Assembly (NCBI GenBank): GCA_030017685.1
Contig: JASEHH010000031.1
Span: forward strand, 1-36,306
Origin: Thermodesulfobacteriota bacterium
GTDB taxonomy: Bacteria; Desulfobacterota; BSN033; UBA1163
Length of the DNA stretch: 36,306 nucleotides
Reading direction: 5' to 3'
Part shown: positions 21,915 to 35,856 of the stretch, in pieces
How the letters are laid out: the number at the start of each line of letters is the position of its first letter
Position numbering within the stretch: position 1 is the stretch's first letter
Notes under the pieces: model-generated
Database searches by the model: none
Told to the model about the DNA's origin: nothing
What the model saw: only the letters and a program-made list of their open reading frames with translations
Program-made: the position numbers and the translations under genes

Positions 21915-23027
21915 ATGAACAAGAAAGAGAGAAAACTTTTAGTGGTGGATGACAACATCGACTTCGTTCATTTCATACGGAGAGCTTTGGAACAGGAGGA
22001 TTACCGAATCTCCATTGCCTTGGATGGGAAAACAGCCATTGAAAAAGCGTCAACAGAAAATCCGGAGCTCATTCTCCTTGATATGAAACTGCCTGACATA
22101 TCGGGAGAAGAGGTATTGGAGAGGGTTAAGGAGGTCAATAAAGATATTCCCGTGATAGTCATCACCGGTTATGGAGGAGACCAGGTGGCGATTGATATGA
22201 TGAGAAAAGGGGCTATCGATTTTCTCACAAAACCTGTGGAACCCCGGATTCTTATCAAGGCGATAAAGAACGCCCTGGCGATTCACGACGTCCGGCAGGA
22301 GGACAAACAGTTTAACCCCTATCCCTCTCTTGAAATATTTTTCCCTTTTCTTGCTCATGAGATTCGAAATCCGCTCCATGCTATCTCAGGGGCTCTGGCC
22401 ATCATCCAAAGGCGCTGTAATTTAGAGGATCAATTTCTAACCCAATCCATCAAGATCATCCATGAGGAAGTTCAGCACTTAAATGATTTTGTTCAGGGAT
22501 GCCTCAATTTCGTAAGACCTCCCGATTTCATTCGTTTCAGCGAGGTGGATCTCCGGGAGGTGATTTCAGTGACCGTGAGCATGCTGACTCACATGTTTGA
22601 ATCCGAATCAAATAAAATCGAGATCACCGTCAAGGCTGATCCTGATCTCCCAAAGGTTTATGTCAATTATGAAGAGATTAAACAAGCCTTTTTAAACATC
22701 ATCAAAAATGCCTATGAGGCGATGCCTGAAGGAGGGGAATTATTGATCGAGGCCTCCCAGACCCATGAATTCCCCAAAATGATAGAAATTGTTTTTGCGG
22801 ATCAGGGGGTAGGAATAAAGAAGGAAGCGATGGACTTTCTCTTTAGTCCTTTTTTTACCAACAAACCCAGGGGAAATGGGTTAGGGTTGGCCCTCTGTCG
22901 AAGAATCATTGTCGAACGTCATAAGGGGACAATCCATATCGAAAGCGAAGAAAAGAAGGGAACAACGGTTAAAGTAAAGTTGCCCATCACCCGACTACAA
23001 GAAAATACCCCGGGAGAAGCATCGTGA
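21915..23027 (+). CDS. Receiver-histidine kinase (REC-HisKA-HATPase)
   Basis: 370 residues, cytoplasmic, without a membrane segment. The N-terminal receiver has D12-D13, phospho-acceptor D56 and TKP, all intact. The kinase has the H-box FLAHEIRNPLHAI with H148, the N-box NIIKNAYEAM, G1 DQGVGI, the F-box SPFFTNKPRGNG and G2 NGLGLAL. Its GTGA end overlaps the next regulator gene, so they should form one phosphorelay: an upstream kinase phosphorylates the receiver, which tunes H148 and then the NtrC-type partner. The signal is unknown. Only a weak AGGG precedes the ATG. Confidence 0.93.
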   Translation: MNKKERKLLVVDDNIDFVHFIRRALEQEDYRISIALDGKTAIEKASTENPELILLDMKLPDISGEEVLERVKEVNKDIPVIVITGYGGDQVAIDMMRKGAIDFLTKPVEPRILIKAIKNALAIHDVRQEDKQFNPYPSLEIFFPFLAHEIRNPLHAISGALAIIQRRCNLEDQFLTQSIKIIHEEVQHLNDFVQGCLNFVRPPDFIRFSEVDLREVISVTVSMLTHMFESESNKIEITVKADPDLPKVYVNYEEIKQAFLNIIKNAYEAMPEGGELLIEASQTHEFPKMIEIVFADQGVGIKKEAMDFLFSPFFTNKPRGNGLGLALCRRIIVERHKGTIHIESEEKKGTTVKVKLPITRLQENTPGEAS

Positions 23028-24403
23028 CGTCTCAAGCTTCTATTTTAGTGGTCGATGACGAACCCAATTCTCTTTTCGGAATATGTGAGGTTCTCAACGA
23101 TGAGGGTTTTAATGTCCTTCCGGCCGGAAACGGGAGAGAGGCGTTGGAGTCGCTCCATGTGAATCCCATCAATGTGATCGTGACCGATGAGAAGATGCCT
23201 GACTTGAGCGGCATGGAGTTTCTCGCTGAGGTAAAGAAGAACCATCCAAACATCCCGGTGATCCTCATCACGGCTTACGGGTCCGTTTCGATGGCTGTTG
23301 AAAGCCTCAAGCAAGGGGCGTTCTATTTCTTTGAAAAACCGATTTTCAATAATTTAGAGAGATTTATCACCATCATCCGGCAAGCCGTCAAAACTCAGGA
23401 GATGGAGAAGGAAATCGACTCTCTAAGAAGAGAAGTGACCGAAAAATATTCTTTCCCCAATATCATCGGGAATCACCCCAAAATGATTGAGATTTTTGAG
23501 ACGATTGGAAAAGTATCCAAAACCGATGCGACCATTCTCATTCAGGGGGAGAGCGGGACCGGGAAAGACATCATTGCAAAAACGATCCATTACAATAGTT
23601 CGAGAAGGGAAAAACCGTTGGTAACCGTCAATTGTGGAGCGCTTACGGAAAGCCTTCTCACGACGGAATTATTTGGTCACACAAGGGGAGCGTTTACAGG
23701 CGCGGTTAAGGATACGATCGGACGCTTTCAGGCCGCCCATGAAGGGAGCTTGATCTTAGATGAAATCAGTGAAATTCCAGTCAATCTTCAAAAAAACCTT
23801 TTAAGAGTGATCGAAGAAAAGGAGTTTGAAAGGGTGGGGGATTCGAGGTCGACCAAGGTCGATGTTCGAATCATCTCCACGACCAACCGGAACCTTAAGG
23901 AAGAGGTGGTCAAAGGAAATTTCAGGGAAGATCTTTATTATCGATTGGGCATCGTTCCAATAACTCTCCCCCCCTTAAGGGAGCGCCTCTCAGACCTCCC
24001 ATTGCTGGTCAACCACTTTCTTAAGAAGTTTCAGGAAGGCAACGTTCCGTTAAGAATTGAGCCGGAAGCAATCGAGCGTCTCAAGACATTTTCCTGGCCT
24101 GGAAATATCAGGGAATTGGCCAATGTGATTCAGCAGATAGTGGTCTTCTGTCGAAATCATATCATCAGGGTTGACGACCTTCCTTCCCACCTTCTTCTCA
24201 AAGTGGAAGATGTCCGGGTTGGGGAAAAGGGGAAGGTTGACTTAATGAAGAGGGTAGGAAATCTTGAGAGGGCATCGATTCTCGCTAAATTGAAAGAGAC
24301 CAATTGGAATCAAGAGAAGACAGCAGAACTGCTCGGAATAACAAGGAAAATGCTGTCGAATCGGATTATTAAATATCATCTCAAGCCATTGAGAAAGAGG
24401 TAA
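23024..24403 (+). CDS. NtrC-family sigma-54 response regulator
   Basis: 459 residues. Receiver (1-~125) with D11-D12 and phospho-acceptor D55, AAA+ domain with GESGTGKD (Walker A, 175-182), GAFTGA (222-227), D246-E247 (Walker B), TTNR sensor I and RLGIVPITLPPLRER, then a Fis-type helix-turn-helix (AELLGITRKMLSNRIIKYHL). All residues needed to bind sigma-54 and hydrolyse ATP are there. GTG start overlapping the kinase gene by 4 bases. It is the likely phosphorylation partner of the upstream kinase. Targets may include the -24/-12 sites at 25660 and 28172, which is inferred from position only. Confidence 0.94.
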   Translation: MTSQASILVVDDEPNSLFGICEVLNDEGFNVLPAGNGREALESLHVNPINVIVTDEKMPDLSGMEFLAEVKKNHPNIPVILITAYGSVSMAVESLKQGAFYFFEKPIFNNLERFITIIRQAVKTQEMEKEIDSLRREVTEKYSFPNIIGNHPKMIEIFETIGKVSKTDATILIQGESGTGKDIIAKTIHYNSSRREKPLVTVNCGALTESLLTTELFGHTRGAFTGAVKDTIGRFQAAHEGSLILDEISEIPVNLQKNLLRVIEEKEFERVGDSRSTKVDVRIISTTNRNLKEEVVKGNFREDLYYRLGIVPITLPPLRERLSDLPLLVNHFLKKFQEGNVPLRIEPEAIERLKTFSWPGNIRELANVIQQIVVFCRNHIIRVDDLPSHLLLKVEDVRVGEKGKVDLMKRVGNLERASILAKLKETNWNQEKTAELLGITRKMLSNRIIKYHLKPLRKR

Positions 24404-24593: not shown

Positions 24594-25469
24594 ATGGACT
24601 CACACTGGATTCTTCTAATCGATCCCTTTAAAAATCTCCTGAACACCTACCGGATGATTTTGGAGGAGGAAAATTATTGTATTGATACAGCCCTCAATAC
24701 GAAAGACGCCCACTCTCTTTTTGATAAAAGGCCATACTCGGCTATCCTGATGGAATATATCCCGCCCTTTGAGCATTTGCAGGGACTGATCCGGTGGATG
24801 AAAGAAAAGTCTCCTGAAATCTATATCCTGATGGTGACGAATGCGGCGGTGGACGAAACCACCTATGAGAAACTTTTTGAGATAGGGGTCGATGACTTCA
24901 TTCTAAAACCCTATTCACCGCAAAAAATTATCGCCCATATTAAGAAAGGGTTGAGACAACGGGAGGTGACCTCTAAAGTGCAAGATTTGGAAAGCTTGAA
25001 CCTCCTCGACCCCATCTCGAGAGAGATGGAGGGATTGGTTTTCAACAAAATCTTTTTGAACCGTTATCTACGACAGGAGATCAAGAGAGCGAAAAGGCAC
25101 CGACATTCTTTCTCGATTCTTCTCACCCAGATCCCGGCTAAGGAGAGGGCAGGGGAACCATCCGTCCGTTTTTATGGAGAATTGTCAAAGTTGATTAGAA
25201 GATTCATCAGGGAAGAAGACGTCGTGGCAAAGAATAATGGGGAGATCGCCCTCCTCCTTCCCGAAACAGACCAGATGGGCTCAAAAGCTCTGGGAGGAAG
25301 ACTTTCACATTTAATCCGGAATCATCCCCCATTTCAGTACGACGATCTCTACCATGGAATGGCTCAAATTTTATCTTTTCAATACTTTACCTATCCTGAT
25401 CCTTTTGATCTACCCGAGCCCCTCGCAGCGGCGGTTGAAGACCTGAAGAAGGAATATCCCCATCATTAG
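24594..25469 (+). CDS. Degenerate receiver plus degenerate GGDEF-like protein
   Basis: 291 residues. Residues 1-~125 have receiver-fold patterns (LLIDPFKNLLNTYRMILEEE; DFILKPYSPQKIIAHIKKGL). The acidic pair is reduced to D10-P11, and the phospho-acceptor position is Glu (E54 in AILMEYIPP), a change that often mimics phosphorylation. Residues ~140-285 follow the GGDEF-domain outline: a NKIFLNRYLRQEIKRAKRHRHSFSILL opening and REEDVVAKNNGEIALLLPETD, where the GGDEF signature is replaced by NNGEI. It should not make cyclic di-GMP. A binding or scaffold role is inferred. GAGGA precedes the ATG. Confidence 0.75.
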   Translation: MDSHWILLIDPFKNLLNTYRMILEEENYCIDTALNTKDAHSLFDKRPYSAILMEYIPPFEHLQGLIRWMKEKSPEIYILMVTNAAVDETTYEKLFEIGVDDFILKPYSPQKIIAHIKKGLRQREVTSKVQDLESLNLLDPISREMEGLVFNKIFLNRYLRQEIKRAKRHRHSFSILLTQIPAKERAGEPSVRFYGELSKLIRRFIREEDVVAKNNGEIALLLPETDQMGSKALGGRLSHLIRNHPPFQYDDLYHGMAQILSFQYFTYPDPFDLPEPLAAAVEDLKKEYPHH

Positions 25470-25659: not shown

Positions 25660-25676
25660 TTGGTATTATTATTGCT
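25660..25676 (+). promoter_or_regulatory. Candidate sigma-54 (-24/-12) promoter
   Basis: TTGGTATTATTATTGCT: GG at 25662-25663 and GC at 25674-25675 with exactly 10 bases between. The -12 element TTGCT is good; the -24 element has TGGTAT in place of TGGCAC. The gene served would start at 25810, beyond an R2 repeat that would lie in the leader. Confidence 0.45.
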
Positions 25677-25809: not shown

Positions 25810-26211
25810 ATGACAAAAGAAACTATTCTCATCCTCAATAAAGAACGCAGGGATTCCTCTCATCTAAAAACCTTTTTAGAAAAAGAGAAATATATTGTGC
25901 TCCCGGTCAATACCATTGATAGGCTATTAACCAATTTTCAGGAATTCGAAGTTTCAGGGGTCATTGTTGATCTTAATGTGGATCGTCTTTCCCTTTTTGA
26001 AATCATTAAAAAAATAAGGGAAAGGTTGCCCGAACTCTATGTCATGATGATGGTGGATGGGAAGATTGGCGAAAAGGAGCATCAGAAGGTGATCGAGACA
26101 GGGGTTCAGGATTTCTTTGTCAAGCCGATGTCTTACGAAAAAATCCTTTTTCACCTTAAAAGCGGATTGAAACAGCGCAAAAAATATCTTCAAAAAAGAG
26201 CGGAAAGCTAA
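25810..26211 (+). CDS. Stand-alone receiver-like protein, partly degenerate
   Basis: 133 residues covering one receiver domain. The phospho-acceptor Asp is kept (D54 in VIVDLN) and so is the switch Lys (FFVKPMS). The acidic metal-binding pair at the end of strand 1 is N10-K11 followed by E12 (LILNKER), and the conserved Thr/Ser after strand 4 appears to be lost (MMMVDGK). Magnesium-dependent phosphorylation is therefore doubtful. The C-terminal helix runs into a basic tail (LKQRKKYLQKRAES). It is followed after 40 bases by the GAF-type activator, which has no receiver of its own, so a regulatory pairing is plausible. Confidence 0.75.
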   Translation: MTKETILILNKERRDSSHLKTFLEKEKYIVLPVNTIDRLLTNFQEFEVSGVIVDLNVDRLSLFEIIKKIRERLPELYVMMMVDGKIGEKEHQKVIETGVQDFFVKPMSYEKILFHLKSGLKQRKKYLQKRAES

Positions 26212-26251: not shown

Positions 26252-27913
26252 ATGGAACTGAATGCCCTGCCTAAGACATTTGAAAAAATCCCGGAAAGTT
26301 CCTTCTTCATGGACAAAGGCAATCGGGCATTCGGCCTCTTCCAGAAGGTCCAGGGGGCGATGCGTCATGTGCCTGATTTTGGTGAAACCTGCAGGGCAAT
26401 TTTGGATGTTGTGATCGAAGAGACCAATGCCGAAAACTGCTCTCTGATGTTGAAAGACCCCGTTTCCGGATATCTCGTGGTTCGTTCAGCCCGAGGGAAG
26501 GGTGAACAAAAGAGTGTTTTTTACCCCGAACAGCCTGAAAATGGAGAAAGATTTAAATCTGGAGATGGCATTGCGGGGAAAGTTCTCAAAGAAGGACAGG
26601 TCATCATGCTGAATGATGTGAAAAAAGAGCCCCATTTCTTAAAGGCAGATGGCTTGAGCGAAAAAGTAAATTCACTGATCTGTTTCCCCATCCGGGAAGA
26701 GGATCAAGTCGTGGGAGTATTTAACATCAGTCATTCCCAAAAAGGAGCCTTCAACGAAGGAGATAAATGGGTGCTGTCCTATATCTCCAACCAGGTTGGA
26801 ATGGCTCTCACCTCTTCACGGTTCTTTTTAGAGATAAAGGAAATGCACCGTTTAATGAAGCGTTCTGAAAAGCCTTCGCCTGCCGCCCCTCCCGCCTTTG
26901 TGGAAGTCGGCGAAATGACTCGTGAGAACGGGATTTTTATCTATGCAAGTGAAAAAATGCATCGAATTAAAGAACTGATTGATCAGGTTGCCAATACAGA
27001 CGTGACGGTCCTGCTCCAGGGAGAAAGCGGCGTTGGAAAAGAGGTAGTTGCCCGCTCGATCCATCTCAATTCTTTTCGGAAAGAAAAGCCATTTGTCAAA
27101 GTGAATTGCGCCGCTCTTCCGCAAGAACTTCTGGAGAGTGAACTGTTTGGCTATGAGAAGGGTGCCTTTACGGGGGCTTACCGGCAGAAACCAGGAAAAT
27201 TTGAACTCGCCCACACCGGTACGATCTTTTTAGACGAGATTTCAGAGATGAGCCCCTCTCTCCAGGGCAAGCTTTTACAAGTGCTTCAGGACAGGGAATT
27301 TTCAAGATTGGGAGGGAAGAAAGATATATGGGTGGATGTTCGGGTATTGGCTGCTACCAATAAAAATATCGAAGAAATGGTGAACCATGAACGATTTCGT
27401 GAAGATCTCTATTATCGTCTCAATGTCGTCAACGTTACCCTTCCTCCTCTGAGGGAGAGGAAGGAGGAAATTCCCGTTTTTATCGAATATTTTTTGGATA
27501 AATTCAGCAAAAAATACCAAAAAAAGGTACACCCCTTATCGAGCAAGATCATGAGAATTTTTAAACAACATCGTTGGATGGGAAATGTTCGAGAACTGGA
27601 GAATGTCATTCAGCGTTATGTGATTCTTGAAAACGAAAAGATGATTATGGATGAATTAACTTATGGGATCATCGAGAATGCGACCATCGAAAAAGAAAAG
27701 TCCATCGCCCATTCAAAAGCCTGGCCTTCGTTGAAGGATGCCTATAGAGAAGCTACGACCAAAGCGGAATCCGAGAGCATTCTCAAGGCATTGCAGATAA
27801 CGAACTGGAATAGAAAAAGAGCAGCCCAACTCCTCAATATTAGCTATAAAGCCCTCCTTTATAAGATTAAAGATAGTGGCATTGACAAACTCATTCTCCC
27901 ACTGGCGACTTAA
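26252..27913 (+). CDS. GAF-domain sigma-54-dependent transcriptional activator
   Basis: 553 residues. A GAF domain (~45-195) with AENCSLMLKDPVSGYLVVRSARG, GDGIAGKVLKEGQVIMLNDV and LICFPIREEDQVVGVFNIS; then AAA+ with GESGVGKE (257-264), GAFTGA (304-309), D328-E329 in IFLDEISEM, AATN sensor I and LNVVNVTLPPLRER; then a Fis-type helix-turn-helix ([20 protein letters not shown]). All catalytic residues are intact. The GAF domain should sense a small ligand or a partner. GGAGGAG upstream. Its helix-turn-helix is almost the same as that of the next activator (SYKALLYKI), suggesting shared DNA sites. Confidence 0.94.
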   Translation: MELNALPKTFEKIPESSFFMDKGNRAFGLFQKVQGAMRHVPDFGETCRAILDVVIEETNAENCSLMLKDPVSGYLVVRSARGKGEQKSVFYPEQPENGERFKSGDGIAGKVLKEGQVIMLNDVKKEPHFLKADGLSEKVNSLICFPIREEDQVVGVFNISHSQKGAFNEGDKWVLSYISNQVGMALTSSRFFLEIKEMHRLMKRSEKPSPAAPPAFVEVGEMTRENGIFIYASEKMHRIKELIDQVANTDVTVLLQGESGVGKEVVARSIHLNSFRKEKPFVKVNCAALPQELLESELFGYEKGAFTGAYRQKPGKFELAHTGTIFLDEISEMSPSLQGKLLQVLQDREFSRLGGKKDIWVDVRVLAATNKNIEEMVNHERFREDLYYRLNVVNVTLPPLRERKEEIPVFIEYFLDKFSKKYQKKVHPLSSKIMRIFKQHRWMGNVRELENVIQRYVILENEKMIMDELTYGIIENATIEKEKSIAHSKAWPSLKDAYREATTKAESESILKALQITNWNRKRAAQLLNISYKALLYKIKDSGIDKLILPLAT

Positions 27914-28022: not shown

Positions 28023-28069
28023 AAAAGTGGTAACGATTTACCACATTTTCCTGAATCGTTACCACTTTT
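28023..28069 (+). terminator. Perfect 16-bp hairpin with overlapping alternative stem
   Basis: AAAAGTGGTAACGATT (28023-28038) and AATCGTTACCACTTTT (28054-28069) pair perfectly, followed by a T-rich tail. It lies 110 bases after the GAF activator stop and can serve as its terminator. GTGGTAACGATTTACCAC (28027-28044) is also a palindrome, so GTGGTAA/TTACCAC occurs three times. The site lies ~130-175 bases before the transcript start of the -24/-12 promoter at 28172, the right distance for an activator-binding site. Confidence 0.7.
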
Positions 28070-28171: not shown

Positions 28172-28188
28172 TTGGCACTTTAGTTGCT
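28172..28188 (+). promoter_or_regulatory. Sigma-54 (-24/-12) promoter
   Basis: TTGGCAC, five bases, TTGCT: a full match to the YTGGCAC-N5-TTGCW core, with GG (28174-28175) and GC (28186-28187) 10 bases apart. Transcription would start near 28199, only about 6 bases before the ATG at 28205. It probably drives the PspF-shaped gene, the small gene after it and possibly the polysaccharide operon from 29821. Confidence 0.85.
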
Positions 28189-28204
28189 TTTTAATTCAAT
28201 CGTT

Positions 28205-29260
28205 ATGAATAACTTTTCTAAAATCATTTTTTCTAATAGTTTAAAGATGAAAAAGGTCAAAACCATTATTGATCAAGTCGCGCACACCGATATCACAGTT
28301 TTAATAAAAGGCGAAAGCGGAACGGGAAAGAAATTAATAGCCAAGACGATTCACGATATTTCTCCGAGGGGAAAAAACCATTTTGTAAAACTGAATTGTG
28401 CTGCCATTCCTAAAAGCCTCCTTGAGAGCGAGCTTTTTGGGTTTGAAAAGGGGGCCTTTACAGGAGCCCACCTCAAGAAGCCGGGGAAGTTCGAATTAGC
28501 CAATGGAGGAACAATATTGCTAAATGACATCGGTGAGATAGACATTTCTAATCAGGGCAAACTTCTCCAAGTCCTCCAGGATGGAAAATTTTCTCGATTG
28601 GGAGGAGATGGGGATGTCCTGATCGATGCCCGGATTATCGTCACCACTAAAAATCATTTGGAAAGGTCTATGATGGAAGGGCTTTTCCGTGAGGACCTCT
28701 TCTACAGGATTAATGTCATCAGCATCACGGTTCCTCCCTTAAGGGAACGGAAGGAACAGATCCTTCCACTCACCCAATATTTTTTCAATTTTTTTAAAGA
28801 GAAATATAGACGGGATGTCCCCTTCCTCTCGCCGAAAGCCACCAAGATATTCAAAGAATACCTTTGGCCTGGAAACATCCGGGAATTAGAGAACATCGTC
28901 AAGCGGAGGGTCGTCACATCGGATGAAGAGGCGGTCATTCAAATGCTTCTCGGAAAAAAGGAAAATGGCGAGATCGTCGTCGAATCCTTAAGGCCCAACG
29001 GCATCGGAGAACCGCTCCTCAATTTGAAGGAAGTGGGAAGAAAAGCAGGTGAAGAAGCGGAGAAAGATCTCATTCATGCCACCCTCCATGAGACCCATTG
29101 GAATCGAAAGGAGGCAGCTAAATTACTCCGTATCAGTTATAAGGCGTTGCTCTATAAAATTGAGAAATACCATTTGAATAATGGGAGGGAGTATCAGGGA
29201 AAGGGAGAGATGGCCGGGTCAATCGTAAGACCCATCTCAAGCAGGACTGGAGGGATGTGA
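28205..29260 (+). CDS. PspF-shaped sigma-54 activator with altered Walker B and sensor I
   Basis: 351 residues: an AAA+ domain without any N-terminal regulatory domain, then a Fis-type helix-turn-helix ([20 protein letters not shown]). Walker A is GESGTGKK (36-43), GAFTGA is at 83-88 and the arginine-finger pair is R162/R168 ([10 protein letters not shown]). Walker B reads LLND (N107-D108) where LDE is expected, and sensor I reads TTKN (K149) in place of ATN. The neighbours at 23024 and 26252 keep LDE and TN. ATP hydrolysis is therefore doubtful although sigma-54 contact residues remain. ATG 28205 fits the family length and gives PspF-like numbering; an upstream TTG lies inside the promoter. 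It is only ~6 bases from the predicted transcript start. Confidence 0.88.
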
Positions 29261-29718
29261 TGGCGGGTGACAGGGAGACCTTCATGGATGAGTTCAGACC
29301 ATCCCATGGAAAGGTATTGGATCGGGATCTTTTCTTCTTTCTTTTAGATCTTGAGGTGAAGCGGGCTCGACGTTATCAAAACTTTCTCTGCCTATTGCTC
29401 CTCAAAATAAATCCATTTTTAAAAAATGATGTTCAAGAGGAGAAGGACGCCTATAGCCGGATATTGAGTGATATTTTGACTGAGGAGACTCGGGAGAGCG
29501 ATATCATTGGTGCTCTTGAAATAAATCATCTCGCCGTTCTCCTCCCCTATGCCGATGCTTCGGCAGGAGGTCGTGCTAAGTCACGCTATGAAAAGACTCT
29601 GGAATATTACGATTTTGATAATAAAGGGTTTAAAGTGATGATCGATCAGGTCTGTTTCCCTGTCAATGGAGCGGATACAGGCGATCTTCTCAGAAAGGCA
29701 TTGGGAGCAGAGGCATAG
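29260..29718 (+). CDS. Degenerate GGDEF-like protein
   Basis: 152 residues. The outline follows a diguanylate cyclase domain: DRDLFFFLLDLEVKRARRYQNFLCLLLLKIN, then RILSDILTEETRESDIIGALEINHLAVLLPYAD. The R..D...R.GGDEF..LLP core is reduced to RESDIIGALEINHLAVLLP, so GGDEF is lost and cyclase activity is unlikely. It resembles the C-terminal half of the 24594-25469 protein. GGAGGG is 5 bases before ATG 29260 and the gene overlaps the upstream stop by one base; a GTG at 29257 is possible. It is coupled to the PspF-shaped activator and may be its partner. Confidence 0.7.
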   Translation: MAGDRETFMDEFRPSHGKVLDRDLFFFLLDLEVKRARRYQNFLCLLLLKINPFLKNDVQEEKDAYSRILSDILTEETRESDIIGALEINHLAVLLPYADASAGGRAKSRYEKTLEYYDFDNKGFKVMIDQVCFPVNGADTGDLLRKALGAEA

Positions 29719-29820
29719 ATAAACCATGGGTCAAGGGAAGGGGTCCAGTGAAATGTTTTAAGACCCGGAACCCTCGAATTCTTGGATCCTAAAACCCTTA
29801 AGGAAACTAAGGAGAACGAA

Positions 29821-30435
29821 ATGAAAAAATTAGTGACCGTCGGAATCATAGGGTTAGCGATCTTTTGTATATCGACTCCAATCGCATACCCTCAAACTGG
29901 CAAAGAGGTTCTATTAAAAAAAGAATCTCAGGCTGAAGTCGCTGCGGATAGTGACCGTTACATCATAGGGGCTGAGGATGTTCTTTACATCCATGTGTGG
30001 AGGGAGGAAACCGTAACCAAAACGGTTTCGGTAAGAATGGATGGGAGGATCTCCATCCCTCTTGTCGACGAGATTCAGGCAGCAGGGCTTACCCCTCTCC
30101 AATTGAAAGAAAAATTGACCGAGAGGTTGAAAGAATTTGTCGATGATCCCTATATCACCGTCATTGTCATGGAGGCTAATAGTTTTAAGGTCTACATTTC
30201 TGGTCAGATCAAAAGTCCAGGGGTCCTCCGTCTCAGAAGTGAAACCTCTCTTGTCCAAGCTATCTCCATGGTGGGCGGATTTACAGAATGGGCCAATCAG
30301 AGCAAAATTATCATCATTCGAAAGGAAGATGGAAAAGAGAAGCGAATCACAGTCAATTATAAAAAGATTATAAAAGGAGAGGATCTGGACCTAAATCTCA
30401 CATTGAAGGCAGGAGATACAATCATTGTGCCTTAA
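29821..30435 (+). CDS. Polysaccharide export protein, Wza-like (PEP-CTERM/XrtA type)
   Basis: 204 residues. A signal sequence (1-~24, cut near AYPQ) precedes a Poly_export domain (~44-120: YIIGAEDVLYIHVWREE, VSVRMDGRISIPLVDEIQAAGLTPLQLKEKL) and one SLBB domain (~122-180: VYISGQIKSPGVLRLRSETSLVQAISMVGGFTEWA). This short form carries one SLBB and no clear lipobox (LAIFC is a poor match), unlike classical lipoprotein Wza. It should form the periplasmic/outer-membrane channel for a polysaccharide. AAGGAG precedes ATG 29821; the frame opens earlier at 29782 without support. First gene of the polysaccharide operon. Confidence 0.92.
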   Translation: MKKLVTVGIIGLAIFCISTPIAYPQTGKEVLLKKESQAEVAADSDRYIIGAEDVLYIHVWREETVTKTVSVRMDGRISIPLVDEIQAAGLTPLQLKEKLTERLKEFVDDPYITVIVMEANSFKVYISGQIKSPGVLRLRSETSLVQAISMVGGFTEWANQSKIIIIRKEDGKEKRITVNYKKIIKGEDLDLNLTLKAGDTIIVP

Positions 30436-30459
30436 ATAGCTAAGGAGGGGGGGCTAGGA

Positions 30460-31767
30460 ATGATGAAAAAAATGAGGAAGATAGGTCTGAAATTAGGAAT
30501 GGTTTTCATTCTATTTTTGTTAGAAACACCTTTCAGTGATGGTCGAGATTTAGATGATTTTTGGACTCGATTCCATCCATATATTACTGTTCAGGAGGAA
30601 TACAACAGTAACATCAATCTCACTCCTACGAACAGAAAGGATAATTTTATCACGACCCTCTCTCCAGGGATTAAGTTTTCTACCTCTGAGGAAAAGTATG
30701 GAGTAGATTTGGACGTCCGCGCGGGATTCATTTTTTATGCAAAAGAACATGAGGAGAATTACACCAGTCTTCATGGAACACTCAACGCATGGTATGCATT
30801 GACTAAAAATCTGAATTTCCGAGTAAAAGATTACGTCGTCCGATCGGATGAGATTAGAGAGGCAGAATATTCTTCTACTTCGGTAGAGGGCCAATATCTT
30901 CCTTCAAGAACGAGGAAGAGAGAGCCCTATATCCGGAATGTTATTGAGCCCTCGGTCCAGTATCAGTTTGGCAGGGAAAATATGATTGCCCTGAATTACC
31001 GTAATAACCTCTATGAGATTCAAAGTCGGACATCCGAAGATAGCATGGAAAACTTTATCAGTCCAAGAATCATCTATTGGTTCGATATCAGAAATGGAGT
31101 GTCCTTCGAATATGGCCTCACGCTTGGACATTTTGAGAGATCCCCGGATTTAACCGGCCATATGGCGATGGGCCGATACACTCACCGCTTGAATCCGAAA
31201 ACTTCCATCTTCGGAGAATATACTCAACTGTGGCGGAATTTCGATCCCCCTTCCGTTGATTATGCGGTTTATCGACCGAGCCTAGGGATTGAACATACTT
31301 TCAATCCAACGCTAAGTGTAAGAATCCAGGGAGGGTATTACTGGGAAAATCCTGCAAAGGGGTCAACCCAGGGTGGCCCCTTTTACGACCTGTTTGTCAC
31401 ACAGCGGGCCCAAAAAACAACCTATACTCTCTCTTTGCAAGGCGGATACAAGGAGGACTACTTCTCTGCTGAAAACAGAGGCTTCACTCAATACCACCGT
31501 CTCCTGGGAAGGGTGAACTATCAGCTTCTTAAAGAGATGAATCTTGGACTTTTTAACAGTTATGAATGGGCCAAGCTTCCTGGAGGTGTTATCGGAGGGA
31601 GAAAAGAGACCAATCATATATGGGGGATCGGAGGAAATGCCTCCTACCGGCTTTTTCGTTGGTTAACAGTGGCCCTCGAGGCTTCTCATCGGGAAAACCA
31701 TTCCAATCTTGATGGGAACGACTATAGCGAATATCGAGGAATCTTAAGAATCACGGCAGCCTTTTAA
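30460..31767 (+). CDS. Outer-membrane beta-barrel of the polysaccharide locus
   Basis: 435 residues. A signal peptide (1-~28, FILFLLETPFSDG) is followed by alternating amphipathic strands throughout: FHPYITVQEEYNSNINLTP, VDLDVRAGFIFYAKE, FRVKDYVVRSDE, VSFEYGLTLGHFER, VRIQGGYYW, and a final strand closing with RGILRITAAF, an aromatic C-terminal residue typical of outer-membrane insertion. The N-terminus and context match the beta-barrel found in PEP-CTERM/XrtA exopolysaccharide loci, where it may be the outer-membrane part of export. AAGGAGG before the ATG, 24 bases after the export gene. Confidence 0.85.
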   Translation: MMKKMRKIGLKLGMVFILFLLETPFSDGRDLDDFWTRFHPYITVQEEYNSNINLTPTNRKDNFITTLSPGIKFSTSEEKYGVDLDVRAGFIFYAKEHEENYTSLHGTLNAWYALTKNLNFRVKDYVVRSDEIREAEYSSTSVEGQYLPSRTRKREPYIRNVIEPSVQYQFGRENMIALNYRNNLYEIQSRTSEDSMENFISPRIIYWFDIRNGVSFEYGLTLGHFERSPDLTGHMAMGRYTHRLNPKTSIFGEYTQLWRNFDPPSVDYAVYRPSLGIEHTFNPTLSVRIQGGYYWENPAKGSTQGGPFYDLFVTQRAQKTTYTLSLQGGYKEDYFSAENRGFTQYHRLLGRVNYQLLKEMNLGLFNSYEWAKLPGGVIGGRKETNHIWGIGGNASYRLFRWLTVALEASHRENHSNLDGNDYSEYRGILRITAAF

Positions 31768-31789
31768 CAGGTTAACAGGGGAGAAAAAA

Positions 31790-33346
31790 ATGATCAATCC
31801 TGAGAAATCATTCAATATCCATGACTATATCGAAATCTTTTGGAGACGAATCTGGTATATTGCCATCCCTTTTGTCCTGATTCTGTCCGGAGCCGTCATT
31901 TATGCAGTCACCTCTCCCAAGGAATATCGTGCCGCCACGCTGATCCTGGTCACCCCTCAGAAAGTTCCGGAGAGTTTTATCCGGCCCACCGTGACCTCAA
32001 AGATTGAAGACCGCCTCCAGTCCATCGGCCAGGAGATTATGAGCCGGACCCGTTTGGAACAGTTGATCTCCGAATTAAAACTCTATTCCGAGGAGGCCAA
32101 GTCAAAAAGCAAGGAAGAGCTTTATGAATTGATGCGCAAGGACATCCGTGTGGAGGTAAAAGGAAAAGAAGGTTACTTCACGATCTCCTATATTGGAAAG
32201 GATCCCAGGGTGGTAACGACCGTTACGAACAAGTTGGCCTCTCTTTTTATTGAAGAGAATCTTAAATTAAGGGAGCAACAGGCCCAGGGAACCTCAGAGT
32301 TCCTTGCGATTGAGTTGAACGCGACAAAAGTTAAACTGGAGGAACAGGAGAAGACCGTCACGCATTTCAAAAGACAGTTTATGGGTGAGCTTCCGGAACA
32401 GCGGGAGTCCAACCTTAAAGTCCTCGAACAACTCCAGTTGCAGAGTCAGAGGATCGGTGAAAATATCAGGGCGGCCCATGATCGAAAACTGATCATCCAG
32501 AAGCAACTTGCCGACACCGAACTTCTCATCGCCTCGAGCAGTAAAAAAGAGGAGGCTCCCCTTCATTCCTCATCACCTGTTCAAACCGAAAAGGTTTCGA
32601 GAGCCGTTGTCAGGGACCCGCTGGACGTTCAATTGGAACAGATGAAGCACCACCTGATCGATCTTCAATCCAAATACACGTTGAAACATCCTGACATTAT
32701 GATCGTTCAGAAGAGGATCGCAGAACTTGAAGCGAGAATCGAGAAGGAAAGGTCAGAAAAGGAGGCCGCGGAGAAGAAGGAATCTGAATCAAACATTGCG
32801 ACTACGCCATTGTCCTCGCCCAAAATCGTTACCAAGAAGGAGGAGAAGGAGTCCGTTAGACTGAACCCACGTTATAAAGAGATGGAGAGTCAACTCATTG
32901 CCACTGAGCTGGAGATCAGTAGGTTGAAGGAGGAAGAAGAAAAGGGCAAAGGTCAGATCATGAAATATCGGGAGAGAATAGAAAACACGCCCATGCGGGA
33001 ACTGGCAATGGCTAACCTGACCAGGGATTATCAAAATACGAAAGAGCTCTATCAGACTCTTTTAAAGAAAAGTGAGGAGGCACAGCAGGCAGAAAATTTG
33101 GAGAGGCGGCAGAAAGGGGAGCAATTTAAAGTCATCGATCCAGGGAGAATTCCTGAGAAACCCTTTCGGCCTGATATCCCCAAAATTCTCCTTTTTGGGA
33201 TTTTAATAGGTTTGGGTTCAGGCTTTGGACTGGCCTTCTTCAGGGAACAGATGGATCGTTCATTCAGGGACGCTGAAGATCTGGAAGCCACCATGGGGTT
33301 TAAGGTGCTGGCGAACATCCCAACCATTCAAAAGGAAGCGGCTTAA
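31790..33346 (+). CDS. Chain-length determinant (Wzz/GumC-like, no kinase domain)
   Basis: 518 residues. Membrane segment 1 at ~22-42 (IWYIAIPFVLILSGAVIYAVTS), a long periplasmic region with extended coiled coils (~165-245 and ~285-440), a Pro-rich stretch before segment 2 (DPGRIPEKPFRPDIP), and membrane segment 2 at ~468-488 (ILLFGILIGLGSGFGLAFF), ending in a short cytoplasmic tail. This is the co-polymerase that sets polymer length and anchors the separate tyrosine kinase encoded two genes later. The kinase domain of Wzc is absent, as in split systems. GGGGAG before the ATG. Confidence 0.93.
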   Translation: MINPEKSFNIHDYIEIFWRRIWYIAIPFVLILSGAVIYAVTSPKEYRAATLILVTPQKVPESFIRPTVTSKIEDRLQSIGQEIMSRTRLEQLISELKLYSEEAKSKSKEELYELMRKDIRVEVKGKEGYFTISYIGKDPRVVTTVTNKLASLFIEENLKLREQQAQGTSEFLAIELNATKVKLEEQEKTVTHFKRQFMGELPEQRESNLKVLEQLQLQSQRIGENIRAAHDRKLIIQKQLADTELLIASSSKKEEAPLHSSSPVQTEKVSRAVVRDPLDVQLEQMKHHLIDLQSKYTLKHPDIMIVQKRIAELEARIEKERSEKEAAEKKESESNIATTPLSSPKIVTKKEEKESVRLNPRYKEMESQLIATELEISRLKEEEEKGKGQIMKYRERIENTPMRELAMANLTRDYQNTKELYQTLLKKSEEAQQAENLERRQKGEQFKVIDPGRIPEKPFRPDIPKILLFGILIGLGSGFGLAFFREQMDRSFRDAEDLEATMGFKVLANIPTIQKEAA

Positions 33347-33351
33347 CAGAG

Positions 33352-34353
33352 ATGTATACAAAATTTTACGGTTTTAAGACAAAACCCTTTGAGATCACTC
33401 CGGATCCCAAATTTCTCTTTCTAAGCGAAAGCCATAGGGAGGCGTTGGCTCACCTCACCTATTCGGTTAGAGAGAGAAAGGGGTTTACCGTGATTACCGG
33501 AGAGGTGGGGACCGGCAAAACCACACTCGTCCAGACTCTTTTAAGCAGATTGAATGGAAACACAAGGACAGCTTATCTCTTCAACCCGAAATTGGGCTCC
33601 ACCGATTTTATCAGCTATATCTGCGAGGATTTAGGGCTCAAAGGGCAGAAAAGATCGAAGGGGCAATACCTTTCCATGCTCCACAATTTTTTATTGGAAC
33701 GTTATGCTCAAAATGAAAACGTCGTTTTGATCATCGATGAGGCCCATACCCTTGACCCGAAATTGCTCGAAGAGGTGCGTCTGCTTACCAATCTGGAAAC
33801 ACCCAAGTCCAAACTCCTCCAGGTGATCCTGATCGGCCAGCCGGAGCTGAACGATGTTTTGAACGATCCGCAATATCGCCAGTTGAAACAGAGGGTGAGC
33901 CTCCGTTACCATCTCCAGCCTCTCAATCAGGAGGAGACAAAAGAATTCATCGGCAAAAGGTTGAGGGTCGCAGGCGTCAGCGATCCCCATCTTTTCACCC
34001 CCAAAGCCTTGAAGGAGATTTACCGGTATTCAAAGGGAATCCCACGGCTGATCAATATCGTTTGCGATAATGCATTGTTAACTGGGTATGCGACCGACCA
34101 TAAGGTCATCGGACCCAAAATCATCCTTGAGGTGATTGATCATCTGGAGGGGACCGGGAAGAAACGAAAGCGAAGACGATCCATCTTCTTTGCCACCGTA
34201 TTGATGATTTTTCTCACCTTTGGGATCTCCTCCTATATTTTATGGAAAGAGTCTTTTCCGAGAGTGAAATGGGAGATTGGGGAACGGATCCAATCTCTCG
34301 GGAAAATGGCCGAAAAGGTTTACGAGGAGACCCTGGGAAAATATTTTAGATGA
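33352..34353 (+). CDS. ExeA-like AAA+ ATPase of the polysaccharide locus
   Basis: 333 residues. The start MYTKFYGFKTKPFEITPDPKFLFLSESHREALAHL is typical of the ExeA/GspA-like ATPases. Walker A is GEVGTGKT (50-57), Walker B LIIDEAH (D129-E130), and QLKQRVSLRYHLQPL holds the arginine finger region. A membrane segment lies at ~282-303 (SIFFATVLMIFLTFGISSYILW) with a short periplasmic tail; classical ExeA has a peptidoglycan-binding domain there, which is absent. The family is a standard member of PEP-CTERM/XrtA loci; it may power assembly of the export machine. It starts 5 bases after the chain-length gene. Confidence 0.9.
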   Translation: MYTKFYGFKTKPFEITPDPKFLFLSESHREALAHLTYSVRERKGFTVITGEVGTGKTTLVQTLLSRLNGNTRTAYLFNPKLGSTDFISYICEDLGLKGQKRSKGQYLSMLHNFLLERYAQNENVVLIIDEAHTLDPKLLEEVRLLTNLETPKSKLLQVILIGQPELNDVLNDPQYRQLKQRVSLRYHLQPLNQEETKEFIGKRLRVAGVSDPHLFTPKALKEIYRYSKGIPRLINIVCDNALLTGYATDHKVIGPKIILEVIDHLEGTGKKRKRRRSIFFATVLMIFLTFGISSYILWKESFPRVKWEIGERIQSLGKMAEKVYEETLGKYFR

Positions 34354-34366
34354 ACGGAGAGGAGAA

Positions 34367-35284
34367 ATGAGCAAAATATACAAGGCGTTGGAAAAAGCGG
34401 AAAAGGAAAGGGAGCGGGGGGGGCATTCCCCCCCCTCACCGGAGGGTCGGGAAGAAAGCAAAGGGGAATCTCATGAATTGAGGCCCGACGTCTCAAAGTT
34501 CGAGGCATGGGTTTCCGACCGGAGCCTTGTTTCCCTCTCGCAACCCGGATCCCTGGCTGCGGAACAATTCAGAAAACTGAGGACTTACCTTCTTCGGGAG
34601 AAAAGTTCGGAATTTCCCAAAACGGTCATGGTGACGAGCGCGACCAGTGCTGAAGGAAAAACATTTGTTTCAGCAAACCTTGCCGTGGGTATTGTCCAGG
34701 ACCTTCATGCCCATGCCCTGATGGTGGACTGTGATATGCGCAGTCCTCAGCTTTCACGATGGTTTGGTTTGAATGAGGACAAAGGTCTCTCCGATTATCT
34801 CGCAGGAGATGGAAAGCTGGACGATCTATTGAAGAAGACCGGAGTGGAGAAATTGAGCATTCTTTCAGGAGGAGGCGTTCGGGATAACCCCACCGAATTA
34901 ATTGCATCGAAGAAGATGGAGGCGCTGATCGATGAATTAAAAACACGGTATCGAGATCGGTATATCATCTTCGATTCCACCCCTCTCCTTGCCACCACCG
35001 AACCGGAGGTTTTGGCCAAGTTAGTCGATGGGATCATCATCGTCATCAAGGCCGGGGTGACCCTAAGAGAGACGGTCAAACAAGCCATCGCCTCATTGGA
35101 AAAAGATAAGATCATTGGATTTGTCCTGAATGGTTTAGAGTTTAAATCCTCAGGGCTCTCTTCACGTTATTTTGGATCGGACGGATATTATTACAAATAT
35201 GGCTATGGTTACGGCAAAGGAAAGTCAAATGGTGAGAGCAGGTGGAAGAAAATCTTTCCTTTCGCTCGGAAAGGTGGGAGATGA
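34367..35284 (+). CDS. BY-type tyrosine kinase (CpsD/CapB-like)
   Basis: 305 residues. A short N-terminal helix (MSKIYKALEKAEKERER), a variable linker, then the P-loop kinase: Walker A SATSAEGKT (91-99), Walker A' LMVDCD (118-123) and Walker B IIFDSTP (200-206). Seven tyrosines crowd residues 268-282 (YFGSDGYYYKYGYGYG), the expected autophosphorylation cluster. With the chain-length protein it should form a cycling complex that controls polymerisation. GGAGAGGAG precedes ATG 34367; the frame opens at 34277 inside the previous gene without support. The linker is coded by a G8-CATT-C8 tract that could slip. Confidence 0.93.
   Translation: MSKIYKALEKAEKERERGGHSPPSPEGREESKGESHELRPDVSKFEAWVSDRSLVSLSQPGSLAAEQFRKLRTYLLREKSSEFPKTVMVTSATSAEGKTFVSANLAVGIVQDLHAHALMVDCDMRSPQLSRWFGLNEDKGLSDYLAGDGKLDDLLKKTGVEKLSILSGGGVRDNPTELIASKKMEALIDELKTRYRDRYIIFDSTPLLATTEPEVLAKLVDGIIIVIKAGVTLRETVKQAIASLEKDKIIGFVLNGLEFKSSGLSSRYFGSDGYYYKYGYGYGKGKSNGESRWKKIFPFARKGGR
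34416..34435. repeat. G8-CATT-C8 homopolymer hairpin in the kinase gene
   Basis: Eight Gs (34416-34423), CATT, eight Cs (34428-34435) within codons ~17-23 of the kinase. The tracts are self-complementary. Loss or gain of one base in either tract would shift the frame before the catalytic domain. Confidence 0.85.
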
Positions 35285-35358: not shown

Positions 35359-35856
35359 ATGAATCTCTGGTACGTCATCCAAACGAAACCCAAGAAAGAA
35401 GAAGAGGCGACCTCCTATCTCACCACGAAAGGAGTCGATATCTTCGGCCCTAAAATTGAAGCCTATTCCCTGAGGGCAGGAAAAATGGTGAGGGAGCTGA
35501 AGCCTCTTTTCCCGGGGTATCTCTTCGGGAAGATCAATCTGGAGCAGGACTATTCCCTGGTCAGATGGGGGAGGGGGGTTAAGAAAATCCTTGGTTTTGG
35601 TGGATATTCCATCCCCGTATCGGAAGAAGTGATTGAGATCATCAAGAATCGAGTGGACAGCAGTGGGGTCGTAAGAAAAACGACTCACTTTAAACCCAAT
35701 GATTTGGTGAGAATCAAATCGGGTCCCTTAAAAGATCTGGTCGGAATCTTTGACCGGTGGGTGTCAGAAGGCGAACGGGTCAGGATCCTAATGAATCTGA
35801 TTGGATACCAGCCGGCCATAGAAATACATTGCTCCATGCTCGAAAAAGTAGCTTAA
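35359..35856 (+). CDS. NusG/RfaH-like specialised elongation factor
   Basis: 165 residues. The NGN domain opens with LWYVIQTKPKKEEEATSYL and contains FPGYLFGKINLEQ and VRWGRGVKKILGFGG; a KOW domain follows (KPNDLVRIKSGPLKDLVGIF, ~112-131). It binds elongating RNA polymerase. Length and its place within a polysaccharide operon fit the specialised paralogues (RfaH, UpxY, LoaP types) that suppress pausing or termination in long surface-polysaccharide operons, not the housekeeping NusG beside secE and rplK. There is no visible ribosome site; a perfect direct repeat stands immediately upstream. Confidence 0.92.
   Translation: MNLWYVIQTKPKKEEEATSYLTTKGVDIFGPKIEAYSLRAGKMVRELKPLFPGYLFGKINLEQDYSLVRWGRGVKKILGFGGYSIPVSEEVIEIIKNRVDSSGVVRKTTHFKPNDLVRIKSGPLKDLVGIFDRWVSEGERVRILMNLIGYQPAIEIHCSMLEKVA

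Follow-up and report, generated by a model that had tools for sequence, protein, structure and literature searches.

A conserved enhancer-binding protein with an altered Walker B motif, encoded beside a GAF-domain activator at an exopolysaccharide locus

Interactions between paralogous bacterial enhancer-binding proteins (bEBPs) have rarely been reported; examples are HrpR/HrpS, FleQ/FleT, RedR1/RedR2, and the VnfA paralogues (PMC9542535). HrpR and HrpS originated by duplication (PMC4145663). The number of hydrolysing subunits per bEBP ring, and the specialisation of subunits, have so far been studied with engineered mutants of PspF, mixtures, and linked dimers. The D107A variant of PspF has a Vmax of 0.23 per min instead of 39.5 per min, with a Km of 300 uM instead of 250 uM, and variants at R162 and R168 complement the ATPase of D107 and E108 variants in trans (PMC3419264). 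The D107A and E108 mutants bind ATP and hydrolyse it poorly (PMC3419264, PMC4132715). On duplex DNA, E108D is about as active as the wild type, though its ATPase is reduced, and linked PspF dimers in which the wild type alternates with E108 variants prefer pre-opened DNA to duplex DNA (PMC4132715).

Here we describe a bEBP from a Thermodesulfobacteriota bacterium that lacks the Walker B aspartate. Positions refer to the window, which is the whole stretch of DNA that was analysed (36,306 nt of contig JASEHH010000031.1). Judging from its sequence and its neighbours, the protein is probably a built-in partner or brake of an active bEBP with a GAF domain (GAF-bEBP). Our preferred reading, to which we give a probability of about 0.45, is that it is a conserved hydrolysis-deficient subunit that would mix into the rings of the GAF-bEBP and damp its own operon.

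Altered Walker B and sensor I residues

The gene and its motifs are as follows.

28205..29260, + strand: bEBP with altered Walker B, AAA+ plus Fis-type HTH, 351 amino acids, gene 1 of the exopolysaccharide (EPS) operon
28310..28330, + strand: Walker A GESGTGK, residues 36-42 (G36 to K42), with K43 next
28451..28468, + strand: GAFTGA sigma-54 contact loop, residues 83-88, intact in 13/13 orthologues
28523..28528, + strand: altered Walker B, N107-D108 (codons AAT GAC)
28649..28651, + strand: K149 (codon AAA), which adjoins the sensor-I residue Thr148

The open reading frame starts with the ATG at 28205 and ends with the stop codon at 29258-29260. Matches to Sigma54_activat (PF00158; 210 bits), the AAA lid (64.1 bits), and the Fis-type HTH (44.3 bits) are all above the cut-offs, and there is no regulatory domain, as a preliminary description of this DNA had said. 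The motif layout given there is also what we see in the translation: Walker A, GAFTGA, R162, R168, and the HTH are intact (as are D164 and sensor II), with N107-D108 and K149 at the altered sites. Its statement that the numbering is that of E. coli PspF holds up to about residue 172 (further on, R227 of PspF is R226 here; the reference sequence that we used is identical to PDB 2vii at 240/240 residues). Where a sigma-54 activator should have hhhhDE in Walker B, this protein has N-D. We dropped the equivalog names PspF (TIGR02974, 247.3 versus a cut-off of 443.55 bits) and NifA (TIGR01817, the best NCBIfam match, 318.7 versus 528.85 bits), since both scores are under the curated cut-offs.

D-E and T-N are retained in both of the window's remaining activators (at 23024 and 26252), as previously described. 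Within the genome itself, the protein has 22 matches with E of 0.001 or below, of which the last covers only 50 residues; among the 20 matches that we aligned, D107 is missing solely in this protein.

We found 13 full-length orthologues, including the window copy, in two classes. (Genomes G006, G007, G009, G012, and G015 are each counted once.) The nearest named relatives are metagenome assemblies labelled Syntrophaceae or Deltaproteobacteria. Of the 23 genomes from the home class, 10 carry the gene in full, G004 has a fragment that is cut at the 5' end and includes K149 (it is excluded from every count of 13), and no orthologue was found in the other 12. In a sample of 395 genomes from the phylum, where scoring was limited to the best candidates per genome, the scores at the level of orthologues were from 8 known carriers and from G140, G214, and G077, which belong to another class; in the class of G140, the gene was found in 3 of 8 genomes. 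These absences are uncertain because the 13 carriers are draft assemblies.

Position 107 is asparagine in 12 of the orthologues and serine in one (G214), and position 149 is lysine in 11, arginine in one, and glutamine in one (G077), so D107 and N149 each occur in 0/13. As S107 and Q149 show, the replacements are not fixed. Position 108 is acidic in all 13 (11 D, 2 E), position 148 is threonine in 12 and serine in one, and K42, N64, R162, D164, R168, and the sensor-II arginine are retained throughout. K43 is unique to the window copy; the other 12 have glutamate (10) or glycine (2).

Among 83 distinct bEBP stretches from the home genome and related genomes (a first set of loci, with identical and contained stretches collapsed), D107 is present in 73; the 10 stretches that lack it are the 10 orthologues of this first set. 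A further 27 rows, which partly overlap that set, have D107 in 24, and the 3 exceptions are the new orthologues. Position 149 varies more across the 83 stretches (N 62, H 7, S 3, Q 1, K 9, R 1); the 9 lysines and the one arginine are the 10 orthologues. Because this residue varies among bEBPs, we do not rely on K149 alone, which is weak evidence.

All 13 orthologues form one clade (bootstrap 100, SH-aLRT 99), with a minimum of one label change; both trees were built with alignment columns 107, 108, and 149 included. The clade lies near the family to which the neighbouring GAF-bEBP belongs. Seventeen positions separate it from the GAF partners (the majority residues differ and each is found in at least 11 of 13 on its side), and 105, 107, 108, 145, 147, and 149 are around Walker B and sensor I.

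Could the gene be a decaying duplicate, or the changes an assembly error? Its dN/dS is 0.089-0.318 in the 7 of 8 orthologue pairs where it could be computed (dS is above 1 in 4 of these 7), which is slightly above that of the GAF partner in the same seven pairs (0.067-0.186). However, the gene is present in 13 separate genomes from two classes, its other motifs are intact, and these ratios show that the clade is under purifying selection. We consider decay or error very improbable, and we reject a pseudogene or a sequencing error. In particular, the preliminary description had allowed that the substitutions might be unique to this assembly and erroneous, and had suggested looking for them in the EPS loci of relatives; the 13 orthologues settle this point.

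In the PspF literature, sensor I is a threonine. We take T148 to be the equivalent of this sensor-I threonine. Of the changes that were originally claimed, the Walker B loss stands for D107 but not for position 108. Residue 149 is the neighbour of the sensor-I threonine, which is kept, and it is asparagine in only 62 of the 83 stretches. Since position 108 remains acidic in every orthologue and E108D of PspF is tolerated on duplex DNA, we see D107 as the main lesion, and 107 and 149 as the meaningful changes. For the same reasons, we dropped the idea that E108D is the main lesion.

It is fair to infer that the protein would bind ATP without hydrolysing it. This reasoning starts from D107A of PspF, which is an alanine mutant of another bEBP, and is strengthened by the constant loss of N149. 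The retained arginine fingers could serve a neighbouring subunit. Selection seems still to act on nucleotide sensing, and perhaps on some turnover, as position 108 has stayed acidic.

We also considered that the protein might be an active ATPase with an unusual site, in which the acidic residue at 108 and Lys149, near the phosphates, replace the metal ligand. It would then be an ordinary second activator. The acidic residue and the Walker A lysine are kept, the gene is under purifying selection, and transcription by PspF E108D is near wild type (PMC4132715). But D107A lowers the Vmax of PspF by about 170-fold (PMC3419264), D107 is found in 0/13 orthologues versus 73/73 of the other surveyed bEBP stretches, and the window copy has the additional K43. 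An active ATPase seems unlikely.

The GAF-domain partner and the exopolysaccharide locus

The genes around the altered bEBP are as follows.

21915..24403, + strand: receiver-histidine kinase and NtrC-type response regulator (canonical D-E)
25810..26211, + strand: receiver-domain protein, immediately 5' of the GAF-bEBP
26252..27913, + strand: canonical GAF-domain bEBP (D-E, T-N), the constant neighbour
29257..29718, + strand: gene 3' of the altered bEBP, with a weak GGDEF-like match under the Pfam cut-off
29782..35284, + strand: EPS export genes (Wza-like, beta-barrel, chain-length determinant, XrtA-type ATPase, tyrosine-kinase-like)

The chain-length determinant scores above its cut-off (TIGR03007, 289.2 versus 278.85), and the XrtA-type export protein (152.4 versus 180) and ATPase (308.5 versus 324.5) are both under theirs. 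The altered bEBP heads this exopolysaccharide operon, which may be XrtA/PEP-CTERM-like. The NtrC-type protein is below the cut-off for PrsR (353.3 versus 502.6).

Across the loci, with gaps at contig ends, the common gene order is kinase, NtrC-type regulator, two receiver proteins, GAF-bEBP, altered bEBP, GGDEF-like, wza, barrel, chain-length, ATPase, tyrosine kinase. No GGDEF-like gene was found at the loci of G006, G007, or G004, and the kinase and receiver genes were not seen in the G077 and G214 loci. At the end of the EPS genes (35359-35856) is a NusG paralogue like RfaH/UpxY/LoaP, whose best NCBIfam match is below the cut-off; it has counterparts in the G007, G009, G012, G018, and G140 loci. 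The window encodes a further GGDEF-like domain at 24594-25469. In G006 (L103, 6809-8186), the gene for the NtrC-type regulator is split over two frames, and G013 has a similar break, which may be an assembly error or real.

As in hetero-oligomeric pairs, the two paralogous bEBPs are kept together: the altered bEBP is directly 3' of a canonical GAF-bEBP in 12 of the 13 loci. The remaining locus, G140, is split between contigs, with the GAF gene ending one contig and the orthologue at the end of another. The home family was covered with 17 genomes, and those with the GAF partner among their listed high-scoring matches are the same 10 that carry the full gene. D-E, N149, R162, D164, and R168 are present in every one of the 13 GAF partners. 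The recognition helix is nearly identical between the two partners in the 11 of 13 pairs that we compared (the GAF helices of G077 and G214 were left out). A variant helix, LLNKI, is found in both partners of G015 and in both partners of G016; in G140 it is found in the GAF partner and is absent from the companion.

The main rival to damping, and nearly as likely, is that the altered bEBP is a co-activating subunit of a favoured or obligate hetero-hexamer. It would bind ATP without hydrolysis, grip sigma-54, and lend its arginine fingers, while the GAF subunit hydrolyses; this would raise the output or refine the control by signals. Taken by itself, we consider this possible but doubtful. It would explain why GAFTGA, N64, the acidic 108, and the arginine fingers are kept in 13/13 orthologues. 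It also fits with the trans-complementation of PspF D107A (PMC3419264) and with the hetero-oligomeric pairs HrpR/HrpS and FleQ/FleT, which are without regulatory domains (PMC9542535, PMC4145663). However, the GAF partners have all of the motifs in 13/13 cases, so they should work alone.

Another argument against co-activation comes from G018, which is from another family in the same class. There, a second bEBP (L092, 8439-9830, minus strand) lies behind the GAF-bEBP, and behind a -24/-12 site without mismatch. This gene is the sister of the orthologue clade (support of 99/95 in one tree and, on a long branch, 91/93 in another). It has EAFFGV instead of GAFTGA, and C168, and it keeps D-E. By sequence, its degeneration is complementary to that of the altered bEBP. 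Whatever role the genes at this position share, contact with sigma-54 need not be part of it. In G017, no such gene was found, and the GGDEF-like gene comes after a canonical activator.

Promoter and putative enhancer

Three candidate regulatory sites lie upstream of the two bEBP genes.

25661..25675, + strand: second sigma-54-like site TGGTATTATTATTGC, 5' of the receiver and GAF-bEBP genes
28027..28044, no strand assigned: putative enhancer GTGGTAACGATTTACCAC, GTGG-N10-CCAC
28173..28187, + strand: -24/-12 promoter TGGCACTTTAGTTGC, TGGCAC-N5-TTGC, no mismatch

The altered bEBP does have its own -24/-12 promoter, as previously proposed. This is the only site on the + strand with up to 1 mismatch. 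Shuffled controls have a mean of 0.88 sites per shuffle on both strands, so the count alone is not significant, and the significance of the site rests on its conservation: in 9 of 13 orthologues, a site with at most 1 mismatch lies no more than 80 nt from the start. G005 has a two-mismatch site at -119, the orthologues in G007 and G009 have lost the intergenic region (they begin 29 and 16 nt after the GAF gene), and no site was seen before the orthologue in G140. In 7 of the 9 orthologues with the promoter, the ATG is 14-17 nt past the TTGC (17 nt in the window, 28187-28205). With the usual spacing from a -24/-12 site to the start of transcription, this leaves a leader of a few nt, and the transcript may be almost leaderless.

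Sigma-54 itself is present in the genome. A TGGTAY-N5-TTGC site precedes the receiver and GAF-bEBP genes in 9 of the 11 loci that we looked at. Since sigma-54-like sites are found before these genes as well as before the altered bEBP, the EPS locus looks like a two-step sigma-54 cascade. In 401 kb of these loci, TGGYAY-N5-TTGC occurs 27 times on the gene strand versus once on the other, although these sites are not independent because the loci are related.

The putative enhancer and a second arm (28054-28069) form a 16-nt perfect inverted repeat (28023-28069), and a terminator-like hairpin was called there. With the T-rich DNA after it, the repeat could be the terminator of the GAF operon. The enhancer has no mismatches in six loci, including the window, and one mismatch in G005, G016, and G112. 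(In G112 it is behind the GAF gene at the contig end; the G112 row was left out, as the locus has the GAF gene and enhancer only.) Two-mismatch sites are found in G077 and behind the GAF gene of G140. There was no match with up to 2 mismatches in G214, and none in place in G007 or G009. In all 8 orthologue loci that have the enhancer with up to 1 mismatch, the start of the enhancer is 143-147 nt from the start of the promoter (window 146, G006 143, G010 146, G013 144, G012 146, G015 145, G016 143, G005 147). For the two-mismatch site in G077, the distance is 280 nt.

We rejected the idea of proving the enhancer by number. With up to 1 mismatch, the string occurs at 10 places in 401 kb versus 7 for its reversed control, and its count in the window is equalled or exceeded in 8 of 100 shuffles. 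Since the string is hardly more common than the control, what supports the enhancer is its place and spacing: 9 of the 10 places are directly behind a GAF-bEBP gene (the exception is in G029).

In 16 home-family genomes, exact matches fall at 32 distinct places (44 strand hits versus 21 for the control), and they do not separate the genomes with the pair from those without it. Of the 22 places that were examined as loci, 3 have a -24/-12 site 40-260 nt downstream, all of them before orthologues of the altered bEBP; the other 10 places are outside this promoter count, and two of those are the regions upstream of the G012 and G015 orthologues, which were already known. The home genome has 5 distinct exact places (7 strand hits versus 1 for the control), two with a promoter downstream and those on C83, C111, and C295 without. 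It also has 43 TGGCAY-N5-TTGC sites, versus 8 for the reversed control. Just 2 of the 43 have an exact enhancer within 320 nt: the site before the altered bEBP (146 nt) and one before a PEP-CTERM-like gene (134 nt). As a comparison, 19 of 3000 random 320-nt segments of the same loci, with both sites included, contain an exact match.

At the second of these sites (L139, 1501-2501; G000:C231:3158-4158), the exact enhancer is followed by the -24/-12 site and then by the gene for the PEP-CTERM-like protein, whose C-terminal signal was recognised by eye and with a simple pattern. This gene might be a further target of the same activator. No enhancer match was seen at L158, where another gene for a PEP-CTERM-like protein follows a sigma-54 site.

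FleQ and VpsR are ligand-binding regulators. We also considered that the altered bEBP might act at the DNA only, as a competitor for the enhancer or a repressor, or as a regulator of the FleQ/VpsR type, with an AAA+ site that binds nucleotide without remodelling. The EPS and GGDEF-like genes in the locus, and a recognition helix that is nearly that of the activator, fit this idea. However, a DNA-only regulator would not need GAFTGA and the arginine fingers, which are retained, and we think this role improbable.

Proposed role and comparison with known systems

In the damping model, the GAF-bEBP would act from the enhancer about 145 nt upstream to open the sigma-54 promoter from which the EPS operon is transcribed. 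As the product of gene 1 of this operon, the hydrolysis-deficient subunit would bind the same enhancer as the GAF-bEBP. It would enter the rings of the GAF-bEBP and give its arginine fingers while adding no hydrolysis. As the EPS operon is expressed, the share of working sites would drop, which amounts to feedback by the mixing of subunits. Here we infer the loss of hydrolysis, the mixed rings, the shared enhancer, and the sign of the effect. The preliminary description had proposed a non-hydrolysing subunit in mixed hexamers with the GAF activator, or a dominant-negative brake; this is supported in part, by the lost Walker B aspartate, the constant pairing, the sigma-54 promoter, and the similar recognition helices.

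We favour damping because the gene for the companion belongs to the operon under its proposed control, because linked dimers of wild-type PspF and E108 variants prefer pre-opened DNA to duplex DNA (PMC4132715), as damping would predict, and because the sister gene in G018 implies that this position seems to tolerate the loss of contact with sigma-54. The strict conservation of GAFTGA and of the arginine fingers exceeds the needs of a pure brake and would suit a co-activator equally well.

More tentatively, we suggest that this could be a natural bEBP ring with division of labour. The GAF subunits would sense and hydrolyse, and the Asn107/Lys149 companions, lacking the metal ligand of Walker B, would hold ATP, locked in a grip on sigma-54, and donate arginine fingers. 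The companion would come from the first gene of the very operon opened by the ring, in many cases via a transcript with hardly any leader, and the composition of the ring would thereby record the activity of the operon. The sister lineage in G018 would have taken the opposite route at this position, with D-E retained and GAFTGA lost.

If our proposal is correct, then this is a natural and conserved companion whose clearest defect is at the hydrolysis site, with a partner that has the full set of motifs, and the question of subunit specialisation could be tested in a system that was shaped by selection. Feedback by ring composition would also be a way of controlling exopolysaccharide.

HrpR and HrpS of Pseudomonas syringae, which are hetero-hexameric, resemble this pair in being paralogous bEBPs that act together, and the altered bEBP, like them, is without an N-terminal regulatory domain (PMC4145663, PMC9542535). 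They differ in that neither HrpR nor HrpS has a regulatory domain, whereas here one partner has a GAF domain and the other has lost the Walker B aspartate. VnfA1 and VnfA3 of Azotobacter vinelandii are also paralogous bEBPs, for which interaction and both positive and negative effects of hetero-oligomers were proposed (PMC9542535). In contrast to our pair, each of the three VnfA proteins has a GAF domain; the text of that paper does not contain the term "Walker" (PMC9542535). The altered bEBP shares with E. coli PspF the AAA+ plus HTH architecture, the lack of a regulatory domain, and the numbering of the AAA+ core, but as its TIGR02974 score shows, it is not an orthologue.

The PEP-CTERM regulon of PrsK/PrsR is similar in that PEP-CTERM genes close to EPS loci are preceded by sigma-54 promoters, with an activator motif upstream (PMC1569441). 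Its motif 1 ends in TTTACA and lies a mean of 62.8 nt before the promoter motif (PMC1569441), while GTGG-N10-CCAC starts 143-147 or 134 nt before it.

Hetero-oligomeric bEBPs are already known, and a natural member that has lost its Walker B aspartate would be the new element. We found no natural bEBP family of this kind in the literature that we searched, which covers few of the subscription papers and so does not prove absence; other papers, such as PMC10274813 on Caulobacter NtrC, may bear on the question. A likeness to the proposed subunit is found in the D1 domains of Pex1/Pex6, which are natural AAA+ domains that bind ATP without hydrolysis inside a heterohexamer (PMC10518020). Unlike the ring proposed here, Pex1/Pex6 is a eukaryotic double ring, and its inactive domains form a tier of their own (PMC10518020).
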